Assembly: GCA_947503885.1 (NCBI GenBank)
Contig: CANNFD010000003.1
Coordinates: forward strand, 62,001 to 126,000
DNA: 64,000 nt
Reading direction: 5' to 3'
Source of the DNA: an uncultured Olleya sp.
GTDB lineage: Bacteria; Bacteroidota; Bacteroidia; Flavobacteriales; Flavobacteriaceae
In this document: one piece after another, positions 3,942 through 12,478 of the stretch
How the letters are laid out: each line of letters starts with the position of its first letter
Position numbering within the stretch: the first letter of the stretch is position 1
The notes under the pieces: generated by a model
Seen by the model: the letters and a program-made list of their open reading frames with translations, nothing else
What the model was told of the DNA's origin: nothing
The model's database searches: none
Translations under genes and position numbers: made by a program

Positions 3942-5054
3942 ATGAAACTAAACATAGCAGTTTTACCAGGTGACGGAATTGGGCCCGAAACAACAAATCA
4001 AGCTATAAAAGTGCTAAAAGCAATAGCTTTAGAGTTTAATCACACGTTTTTATTTAAAGAAGCCCTTATCGGAGCTATAGCAATTAACCAAAATAATAAC
4101 CCATTACCTGATTATACTTTAAACTTATGTAAATCAAGTGACGCTATTTTGCTAGGTACTATTGGAAAGGCTATTTTTGAAAACGATGCAAAAATGAGTC
4201 CAGAACAAGGTGTAACTACACTTAAAAAAGAGCTAGACTTACATACAAGCGTACTACAAATAAAGGCTTACAGCTGCTTAATAGAAAAATCTCCTCTTAA
4301 AAAAGAAATAATTGAAGGAACAGATATTTGTGTTTATAGCAATCAAGCTAACATGATTTATTTTGGCAAAAAACACTTAAATAAGGATGAGATCATCACT
4401 TCAGATTTATTTGAATATTCTAAACAAGAAATAGAGCGTGTTACTAATCTAGCCTTTAAAAAAGCTCAAAACAGAAATAAAAAAATGACTTTAGTTGATA
4501 AAGCTAATGCTTTAGAAACCTCAAGTTTGTGGGAAAAAGCGGTTAAAGAATTAGCAACTAAATACCCAGATGTAGTTTTAGATTTTATGTTGGTTAAAGA
4601 TGCTGCCAAACAAATAATTTTAAACCCAAAACAATTTGATGTGATTTTATCCGATAAACTTTTTGGTGATATTATAAGCAGTGAAGCTAGTATAATTAGT
4701 GGCATACCTAACTTGTCTGCTTCTGCATCAATTGGAGATAAATATGCAATGTTTAAGCCTAATCATGGATCTTACACAGAGGCAACTGATAAAGGTATTG
4801 CAAACCCACTTGCATCTATATTAAGCGCAGCAATGTTACTTGAGCACTTTGAGTTATTTGAAGAAGCTAAAATAATTAAAAAAGGTGTAGAAAAATCTTT
4901 AAAATTAAAAATTACTACACCCGATTTAAATAATACTTACGATAATGTTTCGACCTCTAAAGTTGGCGATTTTATTGCAGATTTTATAAGTAATCCATAT
5001 GATACTAATATCAACTTCAACAATATTCACTTAGGGCAATCAACAATTATATAA
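3942..5054 (+). CDS. LeuB-like protein lacking key catalytic residues (probable non-canonical paralogue)
   Basis: The fold is that of 3-isopropylmalate dehydrogenase, the NAD-dependent oxidative decarboxylase of leucine synthesis. It has GDGIGPE at 11-17, VDKAN at 185-189, FGDII at 241-245, and GIANPLASILSAAM at 285-298. Length is normal (370) and the frame is intact. Measured against Thermus numbering, the three malate-binding arginines are replaced: R94 by K95, R104 by L105, and R132 by S133 (RELTGG becomes SNQANM). Metal ligand D217 is K219 and D245 is S247. Only Y140, K187 and D243 remain. The usual RPEQG is SPEQG. No leuA, leuC or leuD is nearby. It converges on ilvA, 50 bp away. I infer a decayed or repurposed LeuB copy. 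Confidence 0.85.
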   Translation: MKLNIAVLPGDGIGPETTNQAIKVLKAIALEFNHTFLFKEALIGAIAINQNNNPLPDYTLNLCKSSDAILLGTIGKAIFENDAKMSPEQGVTTLKKELDLHTSVLQIKAYSCLIEKSPLKKEIIEGTDICVYSNQANMIYFGKKHLNKDEIITSDLFEYSKQEIERVTNLAFKKAQNRNKKMTLVDKANALETSSLWEKAVKELATKYPDVVLDFMLVKDAAKQIILNPKQFDVILSDKLFGDIISSEASIISGIPNLSASASIGDKYAMFKPNHGSYTEATDKGIANPLASILSAAMLLEHFELFEEAKIIKKGVEKSLKLKITTPDLNNTYDNVSTSKVGDFIADFISNPYDTNINFNNIHLGQSTII

Positions 5055-10346: not shown

Positions 10347-12026
10347 TTAAAATTCATCAGTCACACAACCTTTGGATGCAGACGAAACTGTTTTTGCATA
10401 TTTGTAAAGTACACCACGTTTAAATTTTAAATCTGGTGCTTTCCATTGTTTTTTTCTTTCGTTTAATTCTGCGTCTGAAACTTCTACTTTAATAGTATTA
10501 GTTTCGGCATCAATAGTAATAATATCACCATCTTTTACTAAAGCAATTGTACCGCCTTCTTGCGCTTCTGGTGTAATGTGACCAACAACAAAACCGTGTG
10601 TACCTCCAGAAAAACGACCATCTGTAATTAATGCGACTTCTTTACCTAAACCTGCACCCATAATTGCAGCAGTTGGTTTTAACATTTCCGGCATTCCTGG
10701 ACCTCCTTTTGGACCTTCGTAACGAATAACAACTACATCTCCTTTTTCTACTTTACCATCTCGAATACCATCATTTGCAGCATATTCGCCTTCAAAAACT
10801 TTTGCTTTTCCTGAGAATTTTAATCCCTCTTTTCCTGTAATTTTTGCTACAGAACCTTCGGTTGCTAAATTGCCATAAAGCATTCTTAAATGTCCTGAAA
10901 TTTTAATTGGTTTTTCAATTGGTTTTATTACATCTTGACCTTCGGTTAAATCCGATACATCTAATAAATTTTCTGCAATTGTTTTTCCTGTAACCGTTAA
11001 ACAATCGCCATGAATTAAGCCTTTCTTTAATAAGTATTTTAAAACCGCAGGGATTCCGCCAACAGCGTGAACGTCTTCCATTAAATATTTTCCGCTAGGT
11101 TTTAAATCGGCTAAAAAAGGTGTGTTATCACTTATATCTTGAAAATCTTTTAATGTGAAATCTATTTGCGCTGCTCTTGCAATTGCTAAAAAATGAAGCA
11201 CTGCATTTGTTGAGCCTCCTAAAATAGTAACTAATCGCACTGCGTTTTCTATTGATTTTCTTGTAATTATATCTGAAGGTTTGATGTCTTTTTCTAATAA
11301 TAATCTTAAGGCTTCACCAGCTTTTACAGACTCTTCTTTTTTAGCATCGCTTAATGCAGGATTAGAAGAATTAAAAGGCAAGGTCATCCCCAAAGCTTCA
11401 ATTGCAGAAGCCATAGTATTTGCTGTGTACATACCACCACAAGCACCTGCTCCTGGACATGCTTTTTCTACTATGCTTTGGTATTCGCTTTCTTCCATAG
11501 TACCAGCAACTTTGCTTCCCCAAGCTTCAAAAGCGGACACGACATCTAGTTTTTGTCCGTTATGGCAACCAGAATCTATGGTTCCGCCATACACCAAAAT
11601 ACTTGGTCTATCTAAACGAATCATTGCCATTAAAGCACCAGGCATATTTTTGTCGCATCCAACAACTGTAATCAAACCATCATAACTCATAGCCTGCACA
11701 ACAGTTTCCATAGAATCTGCAATAATATCTCGAGATGGTAATGAGTAACGCATACCTGGAGTTCCCATAGAAATTCCGTCACTTACGCCAATAGTATTAA
11801 AAATTAATCCGACTACGTCTTCATTTTTTGTACCCTCTTTAACCAATTTTGCTAAATCATTGAGGTGCATATTACATGGATTACCTTCGTAACCTGTACT
11901 TGCTATACCTACAATAGGTTTAAAAAAATCTTCTTTGGTTAACCCGATAGCATGCAACATGGCTTGTGCTGCTGGTTGTGTTGGATCTTGTGTAACTGTT
12001 TTACTGTATTTGTTTAGTTGTTTCAT
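10347..12026 (-). CDS. ilvD: Dihydroxy-acid dehydratase
   Basis: This iron-sulfur enzyme dehydrates dihydroxy acids to the 2-keto acids of Val and Ile. Cluster and metal-site motifs are visible: [24 protein letters not shown], and the C-terminal [15 protein letters not shown]. The length of 559 is standard. It is the first structural gene of the ilv operon, about 160 nt downstream of an attenuator terminator and leader peptide (12188-12316). Its expression is therefore probably set by charged tRNA-Ile and tRNA-Val supply. Confidence 0.96.
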
Positions 12027-12187
12027 GTTTATGTCTACTAAATCTAAATTACTTATTTGCTTTTATTTGACTATTACTGTTATTTACTTCAAGTTAAACT
12101 CAATACTGCAAAATACTTAATAAAATATTGATTATCAACTGTTTAAATGCTAATTTATATGATACTCAATACTATAATATTTTATAC

Positions 12188-12217
12188 AAAAAAAGCCTTC
12201 CGAAAAAGGAAGGCTTT
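12188..12217 (-). terminator. Attenuator terminator of the ilv operon
   Basis: On the minus strand, AAAGCCTTCC (12217-12208) pairs perfectly with GGAAGGCTTT (12201-12192) across a 6-nt loop, and a run of seven T follows (12194-12188). It lies between the leader ORF stop (12242) and ilvD (12026), inside the transcribed leader. The 5' arm can also pair, 9 of 10 bases, with leader segment AAGGAATGCT (12255-12246), which would disrupt the terminator. Confidence 0.88.
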
Positions 12218-12241
12218 AAATAAATTATATGTTTAAATTCA

Positions 12242-12316
12242 TCATAGCATTCCTTGGCTTCGTGAAATAATCACGATGCTAATAATAGAAATGATAATAA
12301 TGACTTGTTTGCTCAT
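12242..12316 (-). CDS. ilv operon leader peptide (Ile/Val-rich, 24 aa)
   Basis: ATG 12316 to TGA 12242 encodes 24 residues beginning MSKQVIIIISIISIVII. Nine are Ile (seven ATT, two ATC) and two are Val; 11 of residues 5-17 are Ile or Val. It precedes an intrinsic terminator and the complete ilvD-B-N-C-A set. Stems AGCA/TGCT and TCGTGA/TCACGA inside the ORF form a 1:2 hairpin. That hairpin sequesters the segment able to act as antiterminator. This is the arrangement of classical ribosome-stalling attenuation (as in E. coli ilvGMEDA). A TAATATTTG resembling a -7 element lies at 12325-12333, so the 5' leader would be very short if it is used. Confidence 0.87.
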   Translation of the reverse strand: MSKQVIIIISIISIVIISRSQGML

Positions 12317-12365
12317 TGTAAGGTCAAATATTAGAATTTTATTTTTACTATCCTAATTTGTTAAA

Positions 12366-12401: not shown

Positions 12402-12478
12402 TGGTGGTCCCACCTGGGCTCGAACCAGGGACTTTCTGATTATGAGTCAGATACTCTAACCAGCTGAGTTATAGGACC
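12402..12478 (-). tRNA. tRNA with CAU anticodon (elongator Met or lysidine-modified Ile)
   Basis: A full cloverleaf is readable on the minus strand. The acceptor GGTCCTA pairs with TGGGACC, the D-arm is ACTC...GAGT, and the anticodon stem TCTGA/TCAGA closes loop CTCATAA (anticodon CAT). The T-arm is CCTGG/CCAGG with TTCGAGC. The discriminator is A and CCA is encoded (12404-12402). It is not the initiator type, because the anticodon stem lacks the three G-C pairs. From sequence alone I cannot separate elongator tRNA-Met from tRNA-Ile(CAU), whose C34 is modified by TilS. Confidence 0.93.

Follow-up and report, generated by a model that had tools for sequence, protein, structure and literature searches.

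A probable ribosome-mediated transcription attenuator ahead of ilvDBNCA in an uncultured Olleya sp. and its counterparts in Flavobacteriaceae

The ilv locus and the anatomy of its leader

The window, i.e., the whole stretch of 64,000 nucleotides analyzed (from contig CANNFD010000003.1 of an uncultured Olleya sp.), contains an ilvDBNCA operon, whose genes were identified with NCBIfam models. The features of the locus, in the direction of transcription, are the following.

12478-12402, minus strand: tRNA gene, anticodon CAT, Met according to ARAGORN; upstream of the leader on the same strand
12352..12356, minus strand: TTAGG, -33-like element of the predicted leader promoter P1; conserved spacing in homologous leaders
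12325..12332, minus strand: AATATTTG, putative -7 box of P1, of the Bacteroidota type TAnnTTTG with one mismatch; box conservation
12242..12316, minus strand: leader peptide ORF of 24 amino acids, MSKQVIIIISIISIVIISRSQGML, stop codon TGA; read from the sequence, with comparable Ile/Val leaders in relatives
12239..12303, minus strand: 1:2 (anti-antiterminator) hairpin, with the inner stem TCGTGA (12276-12271) with TCACGA (12265-12260) and the outer arms 12303-12297/12245-12239 and 12293-12287/12254-12248; minimum free energy and centroid folds
12246..12255, minus strand: segment 2, antiterminator strand AAGGAATGCT, overlapping the last leader codons; pairing with the terminator 5′ arm and co-variation over 80 attenuators
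12208..12217, minus strand: segment 3, terminator 5′ arm AAAGCCTTCC; terminator scan and folding
12192..12201, minus strand: segment 4, terminator 3′ arm GGAAGGCTTT, followed by a T-tract; terminator scan and folding
12044..12169, minus strand: element P2, with TTGAGTATCATA (12169-12158), TTAAACAGTTGATAATCAAT, TTGAGTTTAAC (12103-12093) and the putative -7 box TAATTTAG (12051-12044); alignment
10347..12026, minus strand: ilvD, dihydroxy-acid dehydratase, first gene of the operon; TIGR00110, 745 bits
8585..10318, minus strand: ilvB, acetolactate synthase large subunit; TIGR00118
8053..8583, minus strand: ilvN, acetolactate synthase small subunit; TIGR00119
6538..8040, minus strand: ilvC, ketol-acid reductoisomerase; TIGR00465 / NF003557
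5105..6373, minus strand: ilvA, threonine ammonia-lyase; TIGR02079 / NF006390

As is typical of leader-peptide attenuators, a short ORF rich in Ile and Val codons has ilvDBNCA downstream, and an intrinsic terminator (12217-12192; 10 pairs, a loop of 6 and a T-tract) sits between this ORF and ilvD. The leader ORF is located on the upstream side of ilvD, at a distance of 290 nt, and its residues 5–17 hold all the 9 Ile and the 2 Val. An earlier sequence-only reading had described the 24-codon ORF (12316-12242) with this concentration of Ile and Val codons, the intrinsic terminator after it, and a complementarity of 9 out of 10 bases between AAGGAATGCT (12255-12246) and the terminator 5′ arm; all three were borne out.

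Concerning the stability of the structures, the 161-nt leader folds at -34.4 kcal/mol versus -21.1 ± 3.3 kcal/mol for dinucleotide shuffles (z = -4.0), and none of 200 shuffles folded as well. The 1:2 hairpin amounts to -18.4 kcal/mol as soon as position 12236 is transcribed, and its 5′ arm falls inside the run of Ile codons. A masking hairpin inside the ORF had been anticipated, correctly as to its kind and as to its inner stem TCGTGA/TCACGA, which is indeed predicted. Its extent did not hold: the outer AGCA/TGCT stem appears only in an isolated 39-nt piece, and the fold of the whole leader gives the larger hairpin 12303-12239.

The consequences of translation were modeled by folding, for each codon, the RNA downstream of the ribosome, with 12 nt beyond the P-site codon taken as protected. 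Before segment 4 is present, the probability that segment 3 is paired upstream was 0.85 with the P site at codons 1–17, 0.36 at codon 18 and 0.07 at codon 19. Since the last Ile codon is number 17, a ribosome stalled at any control codon would, according to this folding model, leave the antiterminator free. The proposal that stalling frees the antiterminator is thus reproduced in silico: the folding models of both structures leave that strand free with the ribosome stalled at the control codons, and covered by a ribosome that has finished the leader. Antiterminator and terminator are mutually exclusive, and the antiterminator is conserved.

Two results of the modeling count against an attenuator. 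On the one hand, the terminator dominates the full-length RNA at every ribosome position, with P(3:4) of 0.74–1.00. As the terminator is more stable once segment 4 exists, the decision must be taken during transcription, in agreement with the standard kinetic model. On the other hand, with no ribosome and before segment 4, the 2:3 pairing (-24.1 kcal/mol) beats the 1:2 hairpin; the latter can form first.

Conservation, co-variation and spacing in relatives

The 900 nt upstream of ilvD (or less where short) were compared in 80 named loci, 10 loci of the genus and 109 loci of the family, the last from 109 genomes, one per genus; the genome of the window is counted in the family and genus sets. 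The starts of ilvD were placed by tblastn, and 43 short stretches were set from known coordinates. An attenuator was counted when a leader with at least 6 Ile/Val and at least 7 Ile/Val/Leu in 12 codons ended at most 130 nt from a terminator with a stem score of at least 11 and 6 T in 7, and the counts depend on these chosen thresholds. One locus having leader and hairpin with a short T-run (L018) was left out of them, and several leaders of class B (defined below) are just under the thresholds. Named and unnamed loci may share species, and collapsing was limited to identical stretches.

The attenuator anatomy was found before ilvD in 48 of the 109 family loci, 26 of the 80 named loci and 2 of the 10 genus loci (own included), compared to 0/597 dinucleotide-shuffled upstream regions and 1/199 reverse complements. 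Named carriers include Winogradskyella (L003), Meridianimaribacter (L004), Lutibacter, Flavobacterium, Aquimarina and Zobellia, and further ones are some Saprospiraceae (L034, L036, L080), a Segetibacter MAG (L044) and an Ignavibacteriae MAG (L029). By the same criterion, no match was obtained in 61 family, 54 named and 8 genus loci, the last being L083-L087, with ilvD about 94% identical, and three with a more distant ilvD (68–69%). Absence from these family and genus loci indicates that the attenuator can be lost, or may never have been gained. The sequence-only reading had staked its case on Ile/Val-rich ORFs with a terminator recurring before ilvD in other Flavobacteriaceae, and on the codon bias and the hairpin pair being conserved; the former do recur, at the frequency just given, and anatomy, co-variation and spacing are kept. 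As the candidates were chosen by their Ile/Val content, this richness cannot serve as independent evidence; no selection was applied to pairing, spacing or codon choice.

Co-variation was examined in 80 distinct attenuators, with identical stretches counted once (L082 stands for that of the window, to which it is identical). By loose motif rules, 58 of them have a CCTTCC-like terminator (class A, arms CCTTCC/GGAAGG), 16 a CCTGTATC-like one (class B, arms CCTGTATC/GATACAGG) and 6 some other type. Segment 2 often reads GGAATG in class A, and commonly GATACAG, GATGCAG or GATATAG in class B. The mean energy of pairing between segment 2 and its own terminator arm was -11.4 kcal/mol, versus -8.4 kcal/mol when arms were swapped and -9.8 kcal/mol when they were swapped within class. 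The observed mean was reached by 0/10,000 permutations both overall and within class, with relatedness uncorrected. The folding switch (more than 0.5 when the A site holds the middle Ile/Val codon, less than 0.2 when finished) passed both thresholds in 58/80 distinct attenuators, and 20 of the 22 that missed them keep a pairing of at least 0.2 in the finished state.

Concerning geometry, the last Ile/Val codon of the run is separated from segment 2 by a median of 12 nt (IQR 10–14), while, relative to the end of the stop codon, the start of segment 2 varies between 22 nt upstream and 9 nt downstream in the same 80 attenuators. A near-constant distance from the control codons to segment 2 is what would be expected if the ribosome is the ruler.

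These data bear on the explanation that the terminator just ends the transcript of the upstream tRNA, the ORF and hairpins being accidents of AT-rich DNA, in which Ile codons are abundant. The tRNA gene does end at 12402, upstream on the same strand, but it has its own terminator-like hairpin at 12399-12370, and chance does not account for a combination that the shuffles never yielded, nor for co-variation and near-constant spacing over 80 attenuators. We consider this explanation extremely improbable, and a chance origin of the attenuator was rejected on account of the shuffles and the reverse complements. As to the tRNA itself, C4 and C5 of its acceptor stem, judged by eye, possibly hint at a lysidine tRNA-Ile2.

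The same genome carries two other leaders of interest. The locus before hisG (L205) has a His-rich leader, MNFIQSLHHHFHTSTQAS, and a terminator, and the one before the best trpE match (L209) has a Trp-rich leader, MNIILNHTWWWNFRKSNFVN, also with a terminator; the trpE match lies under the curated cut-off of its model (431.8 vs 517.7 bits). Both are probably further attenuators like the ilv one, as judged from their sequences. For two of the three aspartokinase-family matches (L212, L213) the scan gave no terminator, hence no leader.

The His and Trp leaders are also relevant to the idea that a riboswitch or T-box, i.e., an RNA binding a metabolite or tRNA, runs the terminator, with the ORF incidental. 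Such systems commonly have a terminator and a competing hairpin, as found here. However, the peptide shifts with the pathway (His before hisG, Trp before trpE), conservation concerns the codons and the placement of the control codons with respect to segment 2, and within the window the Rfam covariance models at gathering score match two tRNAs only. It seems reasonable to give this idea almost no weight.

Concerning leucine, the control run of the ilv leader has Ile and Val and no Leu. A leuB-like gene of the window (3942-5054, plus strand) scores below the model cut-off, and the leuA and leuC models gave nothing above cut-off in the nearly complete genome. The leuB-like gene is perhaps an orphan leuB in a leucine auxotroph.

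Predicted promoter elements, codon choice and attenuators in series

In 69 of the 75 first attenuators (72 distinct upstream stretches), the 45 nt preceding the start codon contain a match of at least 5/6 to TAnnTTTG, where shuffles would give 39. This P1-type box sits 8–12 nt before the start codon in 41 of the 69, that of the window included, and the gap from box to ATG is longer (18–22 nt) in eight Flavobacterium-type loci. Of 45 distinct leaders in which an nAnnTTTG box lies close to the start, 22 have a TT[TAG]G tetramer whose first base is 23 or 24 nt upstream of this box; no spacing outside 22–25 gave more than 8, and neighbouring spacings share the same tetramers. As the -7 box has been placed at -12 to -5 relative to the transcription start (PMC9723704), the P1 transcript of the window is predicted to start near 12320, about 4 nt before the leader ATG.

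Another feature of the leaders is their codon choice. In 41 loci for which a leader and a complete ilvD were available, GTC, a rare Val codon, is about five times as frequent among the Val codons of the leaders (54/125) as among those of ilvD (129/1611; odds ratio 8.7, Fisher p 2e-23). The share of ATA among Ile codons is 22/284 in leaders and 352/1657 in ilvD. The next codon is ATT for 53 of the 94 GTC codons in the 80 attenuators. The over-use of GTC could come from pairing in the masking hairpin, or from stalling at a scarce tRNA.

Between the terminator and ilvD, the element P2 consists of four blocks at nearly fixed spacing, TTGAACATCATA, TTAAAnnnCTGATnnnCAG, TTGAATTTAAC and TAnnTTnG(A), as seen in 75 distinct aligned sequences drawn from 199 loci by a pattern matching the first block. 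The fourth block is compatible with a -7 box, and in the window it ends 17 nt before the ilvD ATG. The alignment of the 75 sequences gave no consensus RNA structure (RNAalifold 0.0 kcal/mol; the column shuffles likewise gave 0.0, so this control is uninformative), and the single-sequence folds of 40 of them had a mean z of -0.55. A riboswitch was therefore rejected for P2: with no consensus structure and with a promoter-like TAnnTTnG box at its end, P2 is read as a DNA element.

A pattern for the first two blocks of P2 matched once in the genome of the window and gave 30 matches in the 149 family genomes, distributed over 28 of them, versus one match of the reversed control pattern. By coordinate comparison, 21 of the 30 matches are directly upstream of ilvD, 2 are about 1 kb upstream and 7 are elsewhere. 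Judging by these patterns, the 109 family loci comprise 24 with P2 and attenuator, 16 with P2 only, 24 with the attenuator only and 45 with neither; in the genus, P2 is present in 8/10 loci and the attenuator in 2/10. P2 is probably a second, ilv-specific promoter, with an upstream region for a putative binding protein, independent of the attenuator. Being downstream of the terminator, it would give rise to transcription that bypasses the attenuator.

It could be argued from this that P2 and the conserved region upstream of it are the main ilv control, and that the attenuator is a minor device never met by P2 transcripts. The occurrence of P2 with and without the attenuator, its prevalence in the genus and its near confinement to ilvD speak for this. 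Against it, the pairing and spacing of the attenuator are constrained across many genera, 45 of 75 attenuator-bearing loci are without P2 by pattern, and in eight Flavobacterium-type loci the terminator ends 33–39 nt before ilvD, while the activity of P2 is itself deduced only from a -7-like box and from conservation. We regard a dominant role of P2 as unlikely, yet deserving serious consideration beside the attenuator.

Two attenuators in series were found in 9/199 upstream regions. In seven of them (L005, L030, L101, L102, L105, L106, L135) the first unit is of class A and the second of class B; the Aquimarina locus L013 has two similar units, and the Ignavibacteriae locus L029 two others. 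The window has a single class A unit, with 22 nt between the terminator stem and the P2 element. On these grounds, we tentatively suggest, at somewhat less than even odds, that ilv control in Flavobacteriaceae works in several stages, a single one of which is retained in the window. Stage A would be a near-leaderless Ile/Val leader with a CCTTCC-type terminator; stage B, in several relatives, would be a second, structurally different Ile/Val attenuator placed in series, with a CCTGTATC-type terminator; and the ilv-specific promoter region P2, after these stages, would escape both. If this is true, a second attenuator sensing the amino acids already read by the first would make the response steeper or more graded. 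Loci with A and B in series offer a natural test of what the second one contributes.

Proposed mechanism and comparison with known systems

The match between the amino acids of the leader and the pathway, the conserved anatomy, the co-variation, the near-constant spacing and the sister His and Trp leaders support the reading of the locus as a ribosome-mediated transcription attenuator of the trp/his/ilv type, to which we assign a probability of about 0.93. RNA polymerase would start at P1, and a ribosome would be loaded onto the leader ORF very close to where the transcript begins. With plentiful charged tRNA-Ile and tRNA-Val, it would reach the stop codon and cover segment 2, so that segments 3 and 4 would form the terminator and transcription would stop before ilvD. 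With Ile or Val in short supply, the ribosome would stall within codons 5–17, leaving segment 2 free to pair with segment 3 as the antiterminator, and the polymerase would read into ilvDBNCA. P2, past the terminator, would probably add transcription independent of the attenuator.

Ribosome-mediated attenuation of ilv genes is textbook knowledge for E. coli. The leaders of ilvGMEDA (ilvL) and ilvBN (ivbL) also have a peptide rich in branched-chain residues, a masking hairpin, an antiterminator and a terminator ahead of ilv genes. In contrast, the control run of the window is without Leu (the single Leu is residue 24, just before the stop codon), and the window has a Bacteroidota-type promoter, a predicted 5′ UTR of about 4 nt and the gene order ilvDBNCA. 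Attenuators of amino acid operons were reportedly predicted in some Bacteroidetes/Chlorobi genomes by Vitreschak et al. in 2004 (FEMS Microbiol Lett).

Outside enterics, the ilvBN attenuator of Caulobacter crescentus is described as combining a terminator with a leader ORF that has Ile and Val codons in tandem (PMC4117421), and is similar to the window in this arrangement ahead of ilv genes. It differs in belonging to an alphaproteobacterium, in the other genes directly downstream, and in that ribosome profiling and RNA-seq were used there, and sequence alone here. Closer in taxonomy, the main text on Flavobacterium psychrophilum reports 'strong clues' for leader peptide attenuation ahead of operons for amino-acid biosynthesis, as well as conserved 5′ elements preceding, for example, pheA and hisG (PMC9723704); the host is likewise a flavobacterium and the operons concern amino acids. 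The same source describes Bacteroidota as lacking Shine-Dalgarno sites. The view of the sequence-only reading, that few cases are described in Bacteroidota, has to be qualified, since attenuation was already noted in that species; ilv itself has 0 occurrences in the main text of PMC9723704. In a literature search covering mainly the main texts of openly accessible journals, no paper on ilv attenuation in Flavobacteriaceae/Bacteroidetes was recognized.

The tandem loci resemble the leader of Salmonella mgtCBR in having two short ORFs and attenuators in series, with the difference that the mgtCBR ORFs are not known to sense Ile or Val and the operon is not biosynthetic. The two short ORFs of that single leader are proposed to act as serial attenuators (PMC3641672). 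The location of the leader ORF right at the beginning of the transcript, which is predicted to start about 4 nt before the ATG in the window, recalls trpL of Sinorhizobium meliloti, which is described as leaderless, with transcription beginning at the ATG (PMC7298713). To such known systems, the present comparison would add a conserved putative promoter near the leader ATG, candidate tandem attenuators, the over-use of GTC and a second conserved promoter-like element. Extended over many genera, it supports the operation of textbook attenuation for Ile/Val, and probably for His and Trp, in Bacteroidota, a group with unusual promoters. If so, leader-peptide annotation and amino-acid regulation would become more predictable in these abundant bacteria.
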